Assembly (NCBI GenBank): GCA_030605835.1
Contig: JAUWHO010000023.1
Location: 1 to 64,000, forward strand
Origin: Candidatus Zixiibacteriota bacterium
Lineage (GTDB): Bacteria; Zixibacteria; MSB-5A5; DG-27
Length of the DNA stretch: 64,000 nt
Direction of reading: 5' to 3'
Position 1 is the first letter of the stretch. Each line of letters starts with the position of its first letter. A program made the translations under genes and the position numbers. Below are positions 38,874 through 46,819 of this stretch, one piece after another. Under the pieces are notes generated by a model that was not told where the DNA came from, ran no database searches, and worked only from the letters and a program-made list of their open reading frames with translations.

Positions 38874-40523
38874 ATGTCTGAGCCCATGACAGAGCTTTTG
38901 GCGACCATCCCGATTTTCGCCCGCTTCAGCGACCAGCAACTGGATAACATCTCCAGACTGATGGAGAAGAGGCGCTATCCCGCCAATCACCTTCTCTTCG
39001 AGGAGGGCAGCCCGGGGGACACTTTCTACGTGATTATCTCCGGCGAGGTCGAGATTCAGAAAAAGTCCGCGGAAGGGCCTGACAAGGTCACTCTGGCGGT
39101 GAGGGGGGCCGGAGATTTCTTCGGGGAGATGGCACTAATCCAGAATGCTCCCCGCTTTGCCAGTGCCAAAATCGCCCAAGAGTGTCAGATGTTGGAACTG
39201 CCCAAGCAGAGATTCCTCTCTCTTCTGGGCTCAAATCCGGTCCTGGCCAATCAGATAATGGGAGCTTTGTCCTACCGACTGCGGGAGTCGGACCTGCATC
39301 TCATAGAGGACTTAAAAAAGAAGAATCGGGAACTGCGGGAGGCTTACGACCTCCAAATGAAATTAGCCTCCGATCTTAAGCAGAGCAATCAACAGCTTCA
39401 GGAGGCCAAGGAGTTTCTGGAGAGAATTATCTCCACCACTCCCAACGCCATCGTGGTCACCGACCCGGAGAAAAGAATAGTAACCTTCAACCAGACTGCC
39501 ATCAGATTTTTCGGATACTCTCTGGAGGAGATAAAGGGGATCGATTTCATCTCCCTGTTCGCCACAAGTGCTCAAAGCTCACTTCAGGAAAGCATCGACC
39601 AGACGATAAAAGAGAGCCTTTTGGTTCGGAAGGAGGTCACTGCTCAGAGGCGAGATGGGACTTACTTTTTAACCCAACTCACCGCCACCGGAGTCCAGGA
39701 CGAAAGGGGAGAGGTGGTCGGGGTTCTGGGCATAATCGAGGATATAACCGAGGAGAAAAACTTAGAAAGGCAGGCTCTGGAACTGGAGCAGATGGCCTCC
39801 CGAGGAGAGATGGCCGCTGAGGTCGCCCATGAACTCAACAACTACATCAGCATCTTGGGAGGGAATCTGGAGCTTCTGCCCTACGTTATGGCCAGAGGGG
39901 ACTATCTCCAGATTCAGGAAAAAATCAAGGCGATGCAAGAGGCGATCCAAAAGATGACTATTTTCACCGAGAACCTGATGAGCCTCTCTCAACAGAAGGT
40001 CAATTTCGTTCCCTGCAATCTGAGCCTCTTTCTGGATAACGAGCTGGCATTCATCAAACCCCAGGCGCGTTTCCGCCAGGTCGATTTCGGGACTTCCTGG
40101 GACCCAAACCTCCCGACAATTCAAGCCGACCCCAACCGCCTGCAACAGCTCTTCTACAATCTGTTCAACAACGCCGCCGCAGCTCTCTCGGAGGTTGAAT
40201 CCAGAAAGAGAGAGATCTCAGTCTCAACACGCTTTCTGCCTCAGCGGGAGATGGTGGAGATAAAGGTAGCTGACACTGGCAGGGGAATTAAAGCTGAACA
40301 CCTCGACTCTGTATTCGAGAAACGGTTTACCACCAAACCAAAGGGGCACGGCTTTGGGCTTCTGACGATCAAGCGAGTTGTGGAGGTTCATGGGGGAGAG
40401 ATCTCGGTGGACTCCAAGGAGGGAGTGGGCACCACCTTCACAGTCCTCTTGCCGGTCAAGCCGCCAGTCGAAACGTTGAAACCTAAAGAATTCACCTCTC
40501 CGGAGAAAGTCAGGACTTCCTGA
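38874..40523 (+). CDS. Sensor histidine kinase with cyclic-nucleotide-binding and PAS domains
   Basis: A soluble 549-residue kinase. Residues 8-130 form a CRP-type cyclic-nucleotide-binding domain. Its phosphate cassette FGEMALIQNAPRFASA keeps the key Glu (E85) and Arg (R94), so ligand binding is plausible. A coiled coil (140-180) leads to a PAS domain (about 183-293). The dimerisation helix has AAEVAHELNNYISILGG (phospho-acceptor H319). The ATPase domain shows DPNRLQQLFYNLFNNAA (N box), DTGRGIKAEH (G1), FEKRFTTKPKGHGFGL and GVGTTFTVLLP. No receiver or membrane segment is present, and no response-regulator gene is adjacent. It is 8 bases from the next gene and forms an operon with a nucleotide cyclase. 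Confidence 0.9.
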   Translation: MSEPMTELLATIPIFARFSDQQLDNISRLMEKRRYPANHLLFEEGSPGDTFYVIISGEVEIQKKSAEGPDKVTLAVRGAGDFFGEMALIQNAPRFASAKIAQECQMLELPKQRFLSLLGSNPVLANQIMGALSYRLRESDLHLIEDLKKKNRELREAYDLQMKLASDLKQSNQQLQEAKEFLERIISTTPNAIVVTDPEKRIVTFNQTAIRFFGYSLEEIKGIDFISLFATSAQSSLQESIDQTIKESLLVRKEVTAQRRDGTYFLTQLTATGVQDERGEVVGVLGIIEDITEEKNLERQALELEQMASRGEMAAEVAHELNNYISILGGNLELLPYVMARGDYLQIQEKIKAMQEAIQKMTIFTENLMSLSQQKVNFVPCNLSLFLDNELAFIKPQARFRQVDFGTSWDPNLPTIQADPNRLQQLFYNLFNNAAAALSEVESRKREISVSTRFLPQREMVEIKVADTGRGIKAEHLDSVFEKRFTTKPKGHGFGLLTIKRVVEVHGGEISVDSKEGVGTTFTVLLPVKPPVETLKPKEFTSPEKVRTS

Positions 40524-40531
40524 GTGGACCC

Positions 40532-40894
40532 ATGGACCCGATACTGTATCTACTTCTAGGACACTACTTAGGCGATTTCGGGATGCAATCCGACGAGACC
40601 GCCGGCAATAAGAGAAATTCTATCGTAGTCTTAACCAGGCATGTTGTCACCTACACCTTGAGCATCGCCGCGGTCTTGCTCATATACTATCTGGTCGAGA
40701 GCCCCGCGCAATTCGGCTGGGAGTTCATCGGAGTATGCCTGCTGGTCATCTTCGTCATACACTGGATTCAGGACTATTCCAAACTCCACCTCCTCCCGGA
40801 CACCAAGCAAACGTATTACTTTGACCAGGTGATACACGTAGCGCTGCTCTATTTCGTCCGCATTATTGGCTACAAGAGCGGATATATCTCGTGA
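40532..40894 (+). CDS. DUF3307 family small membrane protein
   Basis: A 120-residue membrane protein. The opening LYLLLGHYLGDFGMQSDETAGNKRNSIVVLTRHVVTYT with its Gly-His-Asp and Arg-His positions is typical of DUF3307. Three to four hydrophobic segments follow, with HWIQDYSKLHLLP and FDQVIHVALLYF. The function of the family is unknown. It lies between the kinase and the cyclase, overlapping the cyclase start by 4 bases (GTGA), so it is translated together with the cyclase and may anchor it or modulate it. Confidence 0.82.
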   Translation: MDPILYLLLGHYLGDFGMQSDETAGNKRNSIVVLTRHVVTYTLSIAAVLLIYYLVESPAQFGWEFIGVCLLVIFVIHWIQDYSKLHLLPDTKQTYYFDQVIHVALLYFVRIIGYKSGYIS

Positions 40895-43800
40895 AAATGG
40901 GAGGTTTAAGCCAGCTCCCCTTACTGGAGTCGGTAAGCAAATATCTGCCAAGGTTGCTAATCCGGCAGCAATTGAAACGACCCCCGGGGCAATCTGTTTT
41001 CGGAGACTTTCTCGAGGGCAGCCTCCTCTTTGCCGACATCTCTGGATTTACCGCCATATCGGAGAAGCTGGCGGCCTCCGGCAAAAGGGGAGCGGAAGAG
41101 CTAACCTCCATAATGAACCGGGCCTTCGTCAGCCTCACCCGGATCATCTTCCGACACCGTGGTGACATTCTCAAATTCGGCGGGGATGCGGTGTTGGTGT
41201 TTTTCCACGACGACCGTCACCCTCTCGATGCCCTCCGTTGCGGGAGAGCTTTGCAGGAGTATATGTGCAAAAACCGCCTGGTGGAAACCAGCCAGGGGGG
41301 TTTCCCCCTGGAGTTACACCTGGGAGTGCACTCCGGAACCCTGTTGTCCGCCAGCGTCGGGGAGGTCAAAGGCAAGCTGGAACACATCGTTCTCGGCCGG
41401 GACGTCAATCTCACCTTTCGAGCGGCTGATCAGGCGGCAAGCGGGGAGATGAAAATCACCCCAGCCTGCTACGAGAGAGTGTCAGACAATGTGGAGGTCC
41501 AACCCGGCTCTGAAGACCTTCTCCTGGTGAGAAAGGTGCTTGAAGCGCCAACTCCGCCTCTTCAAGCAGACCCTTGCCCACAGAGGGGTGATCCTCTGGC
41601 CCTCAAGGCTTATCTCCCGGTAGGTATCTACGACAAGCTCCAGGCCCTTCAGGAAATCAGAGGGGTGGAGGCAGAACACCGCCGCGTCACGGTGATGTTC
41701 GTCAACTTTCACGATTTCAGCGATTTCATAGAAAAGCTAGCAGGGAATCAACCCGGAGAGATGAGAGCCGAATCCAAAGAAGAGCTCCTGCGACTCCTCA
41801 ATCTCTACTTCACCCAGATGCACAGAATCATAAGCGACCACGGGGGGGTCTTAACCCGCATCGACACCTACTCGAAGGGGGACAAAATGCTCATCCTCTT
41901 CGGAGCTCCGGTCTCCCACGAAGATGATGAACTGCGGGGCCTGCATTGTGCCTTAAAGATGAACTCAGAGCTGGAGAAGATAAACCGGGAAAACAGATTC
42001 AGAATCTGGCAGAGAATCGGCATCAACAGCGGACACGCATTCTGCGGGGACGTCGGAGGTAGCCTGCGCAAGGAGTACACCGTCATGGGCGACGACGTCA
42101 ATTTGGCCGCCCGGCTGATGTCCAAGGCCGAACCGGGGCAGATTCTGGTTGGCCAGAACACTCACCTGAAGGCTCTGGAACGTTTTGATTTCTCCCCCCT
42201 CCCCCCCCTGAAGGTGAAGGGGAAGAAAGAACCGCTGAAGGTTCACTCCCTGGAGGCAAAGAGAAGCACTACAGCAACCAGACGAAGTGCACCCTCGGCG
42301 GAGGTGAAGTTAATAGGCAGAGAGAAGGAGGTTGAGACCCTTCGGCAGACCATTAAAGAGGTCCTCTCAGGGAGGGGGGAGGTGATCTTGGTCACCGGCG
42401 AGGCCGGGATGGGAAAATCCCGCCTCACTCAAGAGTTGAAGAGGTTAGCAGAACAGCAGGGGCTGGGCGGATTTGAAACCGCATGCCAATCTTATGGCAG
42501 GTCTATCCCCTATCTGCCCTGGAGTTCTCTTCTCCGGGAGCTTTTGGAAATCGGTCCGGAGGCCAAGAAGAGAGAAGTAATTGCCAAACTGAAGGAGAAA
42601 CTGTCCCGCTTCGACAATCCGGATTGGTATCCCCTTCTGGGCTCGCCTCTGGGAATGGAATTCCCCGACAACGATACCACCACCCCCTTGGAGGGGAGGC
42701 TCCGTCAGGACAAGACCTTTCAACTGATCGCCGGAGTTTTAGAGGACCGACTGAGAAGCTCCAGATTCTATATCATCTTCGAAGACCTCCACTGGATTGA
42801 CGAGGTTTCCCATCTCCTTTTGAAATTCATAATCGAGAATCTCAACGACTCCCCGTTGTTGTTGGTGCTGGTCTCCCGCCCTCATGAGTCCCTTGCCTGG
42901 TGGACAAGAAAAAAGCCCCGTCTCCTCAATCTGAAAGAGCTCGCCCCCTCAGAGGCACATCATCTGGTCGAATCACTCTTGAAGACCGATAAACCCCCGG
43001 AGGAGTTGACAGAACTGGCGGTCGAGAAATCTCAGGGGAATCCATTCTTCTTAGAGGAGATAATCCACTCCCTGCTCGATTCTAAGATTCTGGTCAGGAA
43101 TCCAGAAACTGGCGGTTACGAGCTTCAGGGCTCAATATCGGAGATAAACCTCCCCGACAACATCGAGGGAGTAATCCAGAGCCGTATCGACCTTCTGGAC
43201 GAAACCTCCAAGCAGGTGCTCAAGGTCGCCGCCATCCTGGGAACAGGTTTCTCCTTCGAGGCCCTGAAGGTCATCTTCCCTTATTCGCTCTCAGAAGAGA
43301 TGCTCGAAAGCCACTTGGGTAAGTTGTCCCGTTTGGACTTAACCCCTCTTGACCGCCCCGCACCCTACCTGGAATACATTTTCAAACATATCATGACCCA
43401 GGAGGTGGCATACAATTCCCAGCCCTTCGAGAAGAGACGAAGACTCCATCAGAAGGCCGGGGAGTACTTCCAGGAACGCCACCGGCACGATCTGGCCTCC
43501 GCATACGAGGTCTTAGCCTATCATTTCAGCCGCAGCCCGGCTCGGCACAAGGCGTTTGAGTATCTGCTTTTGGCCGGGGAGAAATCCCAAAGGTCCTTCG
43601 CCAACAAGGAGGCCATCCTATATTTCTCCTCCGCCGAGGAAGTCTGGGAAAAGGAGAGGGATTCCCTCGAAGAGGGGCAGATTGGCAAGATCGAGACTCT
43701 CTACCGGCAAAGAGGGGAAGTCCTCAAGTTATTGGGAGAATACGACACTGCCAGCTCCGATTTCCAGAAGCTTCTTAGCTACTCGAGGCAGGTTGGAGAG

Positions 43801-45129
43801 AAGAGCAGTGAGGGGCAAGCTCTGAACCTGCTGGCGGAGATCTGCTGGCTACGAGGAGAATATCCGCCGGCACTAAAGCTCTGTAACGCTGCTCTGGAAC
43901 TAACTTGCGATCTCAGTGAGACCAGCGTTCGTGCCCTCGCCCTCTATGGCCTGGGCGAGGTTGAGAGGCGCAGGGGTCATTTCGACGTCGCCTTGAGACA
44001 CCTCGAGAGCGCTTTAGGGCTCTTCGAAGAAATGGAAGAAGAGGATAGTCAGGCTCGAACTCTGAACAATATCGGGATTTCCTACTGGAGCAAGGGGGAG
44101 TTGAAGGAGGCTTTGAAAGCTTTCCAACAGGCGATGGAGATCCGCCGCAGTCTTGGGGACAGGCCCGGAGTGGCCACCGCCCTGAACAATATCGGATTAA
44201 TCTACAGTGTCATCGGGCCTGCACCGAAGGCTCTGAAGTCCTTCACAGAAGCCGCCAAAATCTTCCAAGAGATCGGCGACACCAGAAGTAGATGCTATTG
44301 TCTGGGAAATGTCGGCTTCATTTTGAGAAGCAGCGCCGACTATTCCGCGGCGTTGGAGGTCTACCTGGAAGCTCTTGCGGTCTTGGAAAAAATCGGGGAC
44401 GAACTGGGGTCGGCATACACCTTGAATAACTTAGGGGATGTCTACCAGGACCTCCACGACTTGGAATCGGCTTTCGAGTATCACCGAAGAACCCTAAAGC
44501 TGGCAAAGAAGATCGACGATTCCGAGCTGATAAGCGAGGTTTTAGCAAACCTCGGCAACGATGAGCTGCTTGCCGGAAACCGAGCGGAGGCTAAGAAGAA
44601 TCTGACGGAGAGTCTGGGTTTGGCGGAGAAGATCGGGGCCGGACAGATGCAACTGAAAGCCTTGACCGGTCTTTTGGACCTCTCCGTGACCAGCGGTGAA
44701 TATGAGCAGGCCAAAGGGTATTGGTCGAACTTCGAACGGCTTTTAGAAGACCAGGATGCCTTGGAGTATCTCCCCAAGGCCAAGCTCTGTAAAGGGCTTC
44801 TGGAGATGAACCTGGGAGAAGTGGAGGCCGCAGAAGAAAGCCTCCGGGAGGGGTGGGAAATCGCTGAGAAGACTGGAAACAGACGCGCCGAATGGGAACT
44901 CCACTTCGCTTTGGCCAGATTGTACCAGCAGAAGACCAGCCAGATCGGTGATGGTTTCCTGCAGCTCTCAAGTGACGAGCTAAAGACTGCCAGAGTGATG
45001 ATTCAGGAAACCGCGGAAAAAATCTCTGACCAGAAGTTGGAGAGATTATTTCTGACCTCCAGAGAAATTTCCACGATCCTGGCCGCCGAGGAGAAACCCA
45101 AGCCACAGAATAGAAAGAGAATCTCTTGA
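40891..45129 (+). CDS. Soluble-adenylyl-cyclase-like protein: two class III cyclase domains, AAA/NACHT-type ATPase and TPRs
   Basis: A 1412-residue protein with the layout of mammalian soluble adenylyl cyclase (ADCY10). Cyclase domain 1 (about 35-215) has both metal aspartates, D49 in LLFADISGFT and D99 in GDILKFGGD, plus K95. Domain 2 (about 262-455) has Asn (N272) in place of the first metal Asp (VMFVNFHDF). It keeps K329 in YSKGD and N404/R408 in DDVNLAARL. That unequal pattern, metal site from one domain and base/transition-state residues from the other, is what sAC shows. The ATPase follows with Walker A GEAGMGKS (503-510) and a Walker-B-like FYIIFEDLHWIDE (about 625). At least eight TPR-like repeats fill residues 870-1390. 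Product (cAMP most likely) is inferred. Confidence 0.9.
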   Translation: MKMGGLSQLPLLESVSKYLPRLLIRQQLKRPPGQSVFGDFLEGSLLFADISGFTAISEKLAASGKRGAEELTSIMNRAFVSLTRIIFRHRGDILKFGGDAVLVFFHDDRHPLDALRCGRALQEYMCKNRLVETSQGGFPLELHLGVHSGTLLSASVGEVKGKLEHIVLGRDVNLTFRAADQAASGEMKITPACYERVSDNVEVQPGSEDLLLVRKVLEAPTPPLQADPCPQRGDPLALKAYLPVGIYDKLQALQEIRGVEAEHRRVTVMFVNFHDFSDFIEKLAGNQPGEMRAESKEELLRLLNLYFTQMHRIISDHGGVLTRIDTYSKGDKMLILFGAPVSHEDDELRGLHCALKMNSELEKINRENRFRIWQRIGINSGHAFCGDVGGSLRKEYTVMGDDVNLAARLMSKAEPGQILVGQNTHLKALERFDFSPLPPLKVKGKKEPLKVHSLEAKRSTTATRRSAPSAEVKLIGREKEVETLRQTIKEVLSGRGEVILVTGEAGMGKSRLTQELKRLAEQQGLGGFETACQSYGRSIPYLPWSSLLRELLEIGPEAKKREVIAKLKEKLSRFDNPDWYPLLGSPLGMEFPDNDTTTPLEGRLRQDKTFQLIAGVLEDRLRSSRFYIIFEDLHWIDEVSHLLLKFIIENLNDSPLLLVLVSRPHESLAWWTRKKPRLLNLKELAPSEAHHLVESLLKTDKPPEELTELAVEKSQGNPFFLEEIIHSLLDSKILVRNPETGGYELQGSISEINLPDNIEGVIQSRIDLLDETSKQVLKVAAILGTGFSFEALKVIFPYSLSEEMLESHLGKLSRLDLTPLDRPAPYLEYIFKHIMTQEVAYNSQPFEKRRRLHQKAGEYFQERHRHDLASAYEVLAYHFSRSPARHKAFEYLLLAGEKSQRSFANKEAILYFSSAEEVWEKERDSLEEGQIGKIETLYRQRGEVLKLLGEYDTASSDFQKLLSYSRQVGEKSSEGQALNLLAEICWLRGEYPPALKLCNAALELTCDLSETSVRALALYGLGEVERRRGHFDVALRHLESALGLFEEMEEEDSQARTLNNIGISYWSKGELKEALKAFQQAMEIRRSLGDRPGVATALNNIGLIYSVIGPAPKALKSFTEAAKIFQEIGDTRSRCYCLGNVGFILRSSADYSAALEVYLEALAVLEKIGDELGSAYTLNNLGDVYQDLHDLESAFEYHRRTLKLAKKIDDSELISEVLANLGNDELLAGNRAEAKKNLTESLGLAEKIGAGQMQLKALTGLLDLSVTSGEYEQAKGYWSNFERLLEDQDALEYLPKAKLCKGLLEMNLGEVEAAEESLREGWEIAEKTGNRRAEWELHFALARLYQQKTSQIGDGFLQLSSDELKTARVMIQETAEKISDQKLERLFLTSREISTILAAEEKPKPQNRKRIS

Positions 45130-46398: not shown

Positions 46399-46449
46399 AT
46401 ATATATTATATTGAGCTATCGGAGAGGTGCCGGAGCGGTTGAACGGGAT
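46361..46449 (+). repeat. Direct repeat unit 1: gene end plus 5' part of a tRNA-Ser (pseudo-tRNA 46421-46449)
   Basis: This stretch, from the last codons of the membrane gene to the D-arm of a tRNA-Ser-like sequence (GGAGAGGTGCCGGAGCGGTT onward), recurs at 46480-46563 with roughly 75-80% identity by eye. In this copy the tRNA breaks off after the D-arm and runs into a GC-rich hairpin, so it cannot fold as a tRNA. Confidence 0.65.
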
Positions 46450-46455
46450 CCGCCT

Positions 46456-46474
46456 GCCCCGCCACAGGCGGGGC
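46456..46474. repeat. GC-rich perfect palindrome at the tRNA break point
   Basis: GCCCCGCC, loop ACA, GGCGGGGC form an 8-bp perfect stem exactly where the truncated tRNA-Ser copy stops matching. It could be a small inserted element or a terminator. There is no T-run. Confidence 0.55.
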
Positions 46475-46479
46475 CACTG

Positions 46480-46563
46480 GTGGAAAAACCGTTGACCCAC
46501 TTAGGAATTTTGATTAGATATGCATTGAGCTTCCGGAGAGGTGCCGGAGTGGTTGAACGGGAC
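46480..46563 (+). repeat. Direct repeat unit 2: copied gene end plus tRNA-Ser 5' half
   Basis: In the frame of the upstream gene this copy reads GKTVDPLRNFD and stop, against GKSIDPLKDFH and stop in the real gene, showing that gene-end sequence was duplicated. It continues into the intact tRNA-Ser gene. Confidence 0.65.
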
Positions 46564-46622
46564 GGTCTCGAAAACCGTTGATCCTTCGGGGTCCCTGGGT
46601 TCGAATCCCAGCCTCTCCGCCA
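46535..46622 (+). tRNA. tRNA-Ser, anticodon CGA
   Basis: A class II tRNA of 88 bases with encoded CCA. The acceptor arms GGAGAGG (46535-46541) and CCTCTCC (46612-46618) pair fully. The anticodon stem ACGGT/ACCGT closes loop CTCGAAA with anticodon CGA at 46569-46571, reading UCG. A long variable arm (TTGATCCTTCGGGGTC region) and the T-arm CTGGG TTCGAAT CCCAG follow. The discriminator is G. Confidence 0.95.
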
Positions 46623-46819
46623 TTTTCTTATACTGCTTCCATTTGAGCTAGATAGCCTCATGAGTTTTTCCAATTTGTGGAACAGAGAATATTAATCTAC
46701 AGGATTGGTCACATACTTGGCTGGAATAATGTAAAACTCTGAGTCGTTTCTTACAAGAAGATATCTTATGAAAGGGAGTCAGTTGAAATTCATCTAATTG
46801 CTGAAGGTGGATAAGGACT

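Follow-up and report, generated by a model that had tools for sequence, protein, structure and literature searches.

Bacterial cyclic AMP (cAMP) is taught as acting via CRP, and the locus described here raises the question of whether some bacteria instead hand it to a histidine kinase. The locus lies in a 64,000-nucleotide stretch of DNA from Candidatus Zixiibacteriota bacterium (GCA_030605835.1, contig JAUWHO010000023.1), a member of the phylum Zixibacteria; we refer to the whole stretch, contig C51 in a draft genome of 2.68 Mb, as the window. Three open reading frames (ORFs) follow one another on its + strand, encoding a histidine kinase with a cyclic-nucleotide-binding (CNB) domain, a membrane protein of the family DUF3307, and a cyclase that resembles soluble adenylyl cyclase (sAC). 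We find that the three genes form a conserved unit, and the sequence evidence makes it probable that this unit is a Zixibacteria signaling operon, linking a class III adenylyl cyclase of the sAC-like kind with a two-component system. An initial annotation, made from the letters of the window, had already described the genes as tightly packed, and the ORF coordinates confirm a gap of 8 bases between the kinase and DUF3307 genes and an overlap of 4 bases between the DUF3307 and cyclase genes. The features are as follows, with the source in brackets.

38874..40523, + strand: CNB-PAS histidine kinase, 549 amino acids, ATG start (ORF list and Pfam)
38970..39233, + strand: cyclic-nucleotide-binding domain of the kinase (Pfam, model)
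39126-39128, + strand: Glu85 of the phosphate-binding cassette (alignment)
39153-39155, + strand: Arg94 of the phosphate-binding cassette (alignment)
39411..39752, + strand: PAS domain of the kinase (Pfam)
39828..39830, + strand: candidate phospho-acceptor His319 (alignment)
40128..40460, + strand: HATPase_c domain of the kinase, including its N, D and G boxes (Pfam, alignment)
40532..40894, + strand: DUF3307 membrane protein, 120 amino acids, four long helices (Pfam, model)
40891..45129, + strand: sAC-like class III cyclase, 1412 amino acids, GTG start, with C1, C2, AAA_16 and TPR parts (ORF list, Pfam)
41002..41508, + strand: cyclase C1 domain with metal Asp49 and Asp99, and Lys95 (Pfam, alignment)
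41674..42246, + strand: cyclase C2 domain with Thr397, Asn404, Arg408 and Lys329/Lys332 (Pfam, alignment)
42307..42867, + strand: AAA_16 ATPase domain of the cyclase, whose Walker A motif GEAGMGKS is at residue 503 (Pfam)
43813..44670, + strand: TPR repeats, approximate extent (Pfam)

Conservation of the three genes in Zixibacteria

The first issue is whether the three genes belong together at all. DUF3307 was found in 32 of 133 Zixibacteria genomes, and a DUF3307 search recovered it as a single copy in 25 of 58 relatives. Our conservation count covers 31 DUF3307 loci, with the locus of genome G070 standing outside it. A tblastn search with the three window proteins placed the kinase gene upstream and the cyclase gene downstream, on the same strand, in 30 of these 31 loci; 29 of the 30 extend into the cyclase, and the contig of the other, L025, ends before it. 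The sole exception is L026, where a SatD gene (L026:187-837) is followed by DUF3307. The intervals stay close to zero, ranging from about −13 to +19 between kinase stop and DUF3307 start, and from about −14 to +28 between DUF3307 stop and cyclase start, where the nearest plausible start was used, the automatic choice being unsuitable in a few loci. The pairwise distances of the three proteins are also correlated (r=0.94 for kinase and cyclase, 0.81 for kinase and DUF3307, and 0.81 for DUF3307 and cyclase; Mantel p 0.001), which indicates that the genes were inherited together.

In three near-complete trio genomes (G017, G048, and G073), no protein other than the operon cyclase has a PF00211 domain; G071 and G000 each have one further such protein. 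CNB proteins number 3-5 per trio genome searched, CRP-sized ones among them. With so few cyclases and CNB proteins per genome, their co-location is far from what chance would give, and chance adjacency of the three genes is ruled out by this sparsity together with the order kept in 30 of 31 loci and the co-divergence. Outside Zixibacteria, the trio occurs only in L051, a contig of 3,175 bases titled Calditrichaeota. Its DUF3307 is nearly identical to that of L050 and a DUF3307 search of 38 other genomes of that phylum found none, and the fragment is therefore probably mis-binned. The initial annotation had made its reading depend on the trio being kept in relatives, and order, spacing, and co-divergence all are; judged by its sequences, the trio is a real, conserved unit that appears to be selected for making and binding cyclic nucleotides.

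Proposed making and sensing of the cyclic nucleotide

We then considered whether the proteins carry what such a coupling requires. The cyclase has two Guanylate_cyc domains in Pfam (3.8e-36) followed by AAA_16 and TPRs, that is, two class III domains and then an ATPase and a TPR-like region, and its best PDB match is human ADCY10, over both catalytic domains (1.8e-30), bearing out its earlier description as laid out like sAC. The metal and transition-state residues of a composite active site are in place: D49 and D99, the two metal Asp residues of C1, are kept together with K95 in 28 of 28 relatives, and on the C2 side the Asn/Arg pair N404 and R408 is kept in 24 of 24. K95 is also one of the residues examined for bicarbonate stimulation, of which another, C1 Arg177, is variable. 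Of the C2 residues for adenine recognition, T397 is kept in 25 of 25. The adenine-binding Lys of sAC, which the ADCY10 alignment places at K329, is present in the window and its genus and varies across relatives; K332, three residues on, is kept in 23 of 24.

On the receiving side, Pfam assigns the kinase a cNMP_binding domain (8.5e-23), a PAS domain, and HATPase_c (8.8e-25); the HisKA match, at 22.3 bits, lies under the cut-off of 26.9, and the best-matching kinase family is the AtoS type, with a score under that model's cut-off. The N-terminal domain is a predicted β-barrel with the cassette Gly-Glu ... Arg-x-Ala. E85 and R94, singled out in the initial annotation, are where it had placed them, and they are kept in 28 of 28 relatives within a cassette that is retained in its entirety. 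By sequence the domain matches PKG and PKA, and its AlphaFold2 model (pLDDT 87) is closest to the Mycobacterium tuberculosis CRP and GlxR, cAMP complexes included (E ~1e-13). Cassette and model thus point to a predicted CNB fold nearest to cAMP-binding CRPs, with a pocket that should be able to hold a cyclic nucleotide. The enzymatic part looks equally intact: the candidate phospho-acceptor His319 is His in 27 of the 28 relatives with a letter at that position, and N433, D467, G469, G491, and G493 of the N, D, and G boxes are kept in 29 of 29.

Could the direction of signaling be the reverse? The genes might be co-transcribed with the kinase taking its signal from DUF3307 or through its PAS domain, the cyclase then being an output under kinase control. 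A PAS domain is indeed present, and direction is not readable from sequence; against this, Pfam finds neither REC nor any other phospho-receiver domain in the cyclase, and the CNB cassette is strictly conserved, so that we regard the reverse scheme as distinctly unlikely.

Output and proposed mechanism

Partners of AtoS-type kinases are NtrC-type σ54 activators, and the surroundings of the operon contain candidate targets for such a regulator. A family of lipoproteins without a Pfam match stands in tandem after the operon in families f7, f14, and f15, as well as in L042 and L050. Its genes lie downstream of the cyclase in L035, L039, L042, L044, L049, L050, and L054, and members occur also in L125-L136; all or most of the genomic copies sit after the operon in G071-G074, G057, and G049. 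A σ54-type −24/−12 element (GG-N8-[TC]TGC[AT]) precedes 25 of 34 lipoprotein genes versus 4 of 95 controls (p 2.8e-15), the controls being other genes of the same stretches, the pattern having been chosen after part of the set was seen, and the count including non-independent tandem paralogues and near relatives. For the kinase gene itself, no upstream element of this kind was found above shuffles. The array after the operon suggests an NtrC-type output, and the combination of an AtoS-type kinase core with σ54 lipoprotein promoters makes a path from cAMP through kinase, NtrC-type regulator, and σ54 to the lipoproteins a testable output in at least part of the phylum.

From conservation, gene order, spacing, co-divergence, active-site and cassette residues, folds, and the σ54 elements, we infer the following biochemical steps. 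The cyclase would read an input through its C1/C2 and AAA-TPR parts and make cAMP, with the metal Asp residues contributed by C1 and the Asn and Arg by C2. The cAMP would bind the CNB domain of the neighboring kinase and alter its autophosphorylation via the coiled-coil/PAS linker. The kinase would then phosphorylate a response regulator encoded elsewhere, probably of the NtrC type, which together with σ54 would activate its target genes, the lipoprotein array downstream of the operon being among them in several families. DUF3307, whose conserved His/Asp-rich site would face the cytoplasm, would act as a membrane partner dedicated to the system, holding it at the membrane and setting, reading, or removing the cyclic nucleotide. 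The route from cAMP to a histidine kinase, as first proposed for the window, remains the best reading of the conservation, the cassette, and the sAC-type residues.

Several observations weigh against it. DUF3307 went undetected in about three quarters of the Zixibacteria genomes. About 8-25 NtrC-type activators are present per genome (the motif filter for such regulators missed 15 of the 64 retrieved), and none is assignable to the kinase. In G000, G017, and G048 the lipoprotein genes lie away from the operon, so that the array may not be the common output. The kinase of L011 (L011:48-1496) has Cys in place of the phospho-acceptor His and an altered ATP lid next to an intact CNB cassette and cyclase, and possibly acts as a pseudokinase receptor. 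Finally, the variability of K329 across the family means that base specificity is not certain, and CNB domains are able to bind other ligands. The kinase might accordingly sense cGMP or another nucleotide, with the product of the operon cyclase acting elsewhere, for instance on CRP-like proteins. Further CNB proteins in the genomes, some of them CRP-sized, would accommodate this idea, as would the lack of conservation at K329 and the residue after the cassette Arg, F95, which is neither the Ala found in PKA nor the Thr found in PKG. Yet kinase and cyclase are adjacent and co-diverge, the cassette is wholly kept, and the fold is nearest to cAMP receptors, and we hold a ligand other than the operon's own product to be unlikely.

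As to the regulator, none was noticed adjacent to the operon in 23 trio loci, which were inspected by eye and through similarity clusters, with no search aimed at receiver domains. The initial annotation had suggested looking for an orphan response regulator that co-occurs with the trio. By phyletic match the best candidate is G000:C17:16597, which shares 71% identity with its orthologues in G017 and G071 and has no counterpart in the trio-less G016 and G009. Its operon, however, also encodes a GAF kinase of its own (L143:204-3303), and we therefore did not assign it as partner of the CNB kinase. In G017, NuoE-like genes come after this pair of GAF kinase and NtrC-type regulator. Near the lipoprotein array of G074, a gene at L132:4343-6229 (− strand) encodes a lyase of the fumarase/aspartase type that begins with a CNB domain, possibly a metabolic enzyme controlled by cyclic nucleotides. 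Elsewhere in the window, at 46416-46673 and past a 208-amino-acid ORF, there is a tRNA-like sequence with a partial duplicate immediately upstream of it.

DUF3307 and comparison with known systems

What does the small membrane protein contribute? The initial annotation had it tether or tune one of its partners. The window protein matches DUF3307 (PF11750) with 55 bits versus a cut-off of 23 (E 1e-14), and 13 polar residues are invariant in 29 of 29 sequences (H11, D15, Q19, D21, K27, H37, H77, Q80, D81, K84, D98, Q99, and H102), most of which persist in cyanobacteria and Pseudomonadota. In the AlphaFold2 model (pLDDT 94, pTM 0.85), which consists of four long helices, they are placed at the end of helix 1, the start of helix 2, the end of helix 3, and the start of helix 4, and, should the helices traverse the membrane one after the other, would therefore lie on a common side. 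The two loops of this face carry on average 5.8 Lys+Arg versus 1.8 on the other face, and by the positive-inside rule the conserved face is predicted to be cytoplasmic. A fold search of the PDB gave no match (best E 0.63), and structural matches in BFVD were only phage DUF3307s. A search for DUF3307 on plasmids found none.

We also surveyed the neighbors of DUF3307 in other bacteria, descriptively and within the stretch read around each copy. In L063 (Salinisphaeraceae), DUF3307 has a cyclase on either side, one sAC-like and the other of the MASE7 kind. In cyanobacteria, its gene overlaps a CHASE2 cyclase gene (L113) or has a CHASE2 cyclase on one side and two CNB genes on the other (L112). 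In L118 and L120 it adjoins CNB-containing ABC transporters, and in L119 an oxidoreductase with CNB domains. SatD stands beside DUF3307 in 17 of 30 Pseudomonadota loci (SatD genes in L079-L099), with a weak eighteenth match in L071, whose locus contains two cyclases. About a dozen alphaproteobacterial copies, and those of L117 and L121, have no neighbor of a cyclic-nucleotide type in the stretch read. In a profile comparison, SatD could be aligned to class III cyclases across the two metal-Asp motifs (probability 90-92%, P about 1e-6), a lead, if not proof, that it is possibly an unrecognized cyclase-fold family with a helix-turn-helix (HTH)-like C terminus. DUF3307 is thus a recurrent genomic neighbor of cyclic-nucleotide genes far beyond the Zixibacteria operon, and a role as a "tether" may be too modest. 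Phage copies are found in BFVD as A0A6J5RHJ6 (phiKZ Orf197-like), A0A1L7N193, and A0A8S5PQC1, and PHROG 2470 labels phage DUF3307s as host-takeover membrane proteins. The DUF3307-carrying L114 resembles a phage contig.

It is tempting to speculate that DUF3307 ends the signal, as a putatively metal-dependent membrane phosphodiesterase for cyclic nucleotides (or that it is a membrane receptor for them), the operon then combining synthesis, sensing, and removal. The invariant residues include His/Asp pairs spaced HxxxD, HxxxD, and DxxxH, their predicted location where the four helices end on a shared cytoplasmic face would suit such a site, and both the repeated occurrence near cyclases, SatD, and CNB proteins and the annotation of the phage copies fit. 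The PDB, however, offers no match to a known hydrolase fold, the commonest partner, SatD, is only putatively a cyclase, and about a dozen alphaproteobacterial copies lack such neighbors in the stretch read, which leaves this as a tentative possibility. More doubtful still is the wider proposal that DUF3307 takes part generally in the cyclic-nucleotide biology of bacteria and phages, as a four-helix membrane protein whose cytoplasmic-side His/Asp site would hydrolyze or bind the products of class III cyclases (and SatD) and which jumbo phages would carry to interfere with host nucleotide signaling, the Zixibacteria operon joining maker, sensor, and DUF3307 in one unit. The gene linkage nonetheless gives an uncharacterized family of many bacteria and phages its first testable function, in cyclic-nucleotide signaling.

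With phages carrying DUF3307, the operon could also be an anti-phage system like Pycsar, in which the cyclase senses the phage and the cyclic nucleotide activates a partner effector. PADLOC models of PycC match the cyclase, and those of PycTIR match the CNB part of the kinase. These matches reflect shared cyclase and CNB domains only; the effector position is taken by an intact histidine kinase and not by a toxic TIR or transmembrane CNB protein, DUF3307 has no PADLOC match, and the operon is kept with matching divergence over many families. We did not assign it to Pycsar, with which it shares a class III cyclase and a CNB-domain partner, the partner here being a kinase, and consider such a function very improbable.

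Signaling through cAMP and the kinase thus remains our preferred reading. The initial annotation knew of no described system with this trio, and a literature search, with most subscription literature outside its coverage, likewise found nothing on it; the term "DUF3307" appeared in the searched literature only in a jumbo phage annotation. New here are the recurrent link between DUF3307 and cyclic-nucleotide genes and the σ54 lipoprotein array. Compared with ADCY10, the Zixibacteria cyclase has the same collinear C1-C2 arrangement ahead of a large ATPase/TPR-type C-terminal part and keeps D49, K95, D99, T397, N404, and R408; it differs in sharing an operon with a presumed receptor kinase and DUF3307, in an adenine Lys kept in the window's genus but not family-wide, and in the variable C1 Arg177. 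Close catalytic relatives have been described in cyanobacteria (PMC3838963). The SatD-DUF3307 pair of Pseudomonadota likewise sets DUF3307 beside a protein alignable to class III cyclases, but SatD ends in an HTH-like part and lacks a clear Asn/Arg pair, and the two genes come without a kinase. In the cGMP module of Xanthomonas campestris, a guanylate cyclase adjoins a CNB-GGDEF protein, so that there, too, a class III cyclase neighbors a CNB enzyme that converts the cyclic nucleotide to another signal; its output is cyclic di-GMP, whereas in Zixibacteria it is a histidine kinase, and we know of no DUF3307 in that module. With cAMP-CRP, finally, the operon kinase has in common the CNB fold and the phosphate-binding cassette; unlike in CRP, the domain would drive a histidine kinase core and no DNA-binding domain, so the output would be phosphotransfer. 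If cAMP is indeed passed to a histidine kinase by a conserved operon, this would be a wiring different from that of CRP; several trio genomes have no class III cyclase besides the one in the operon.

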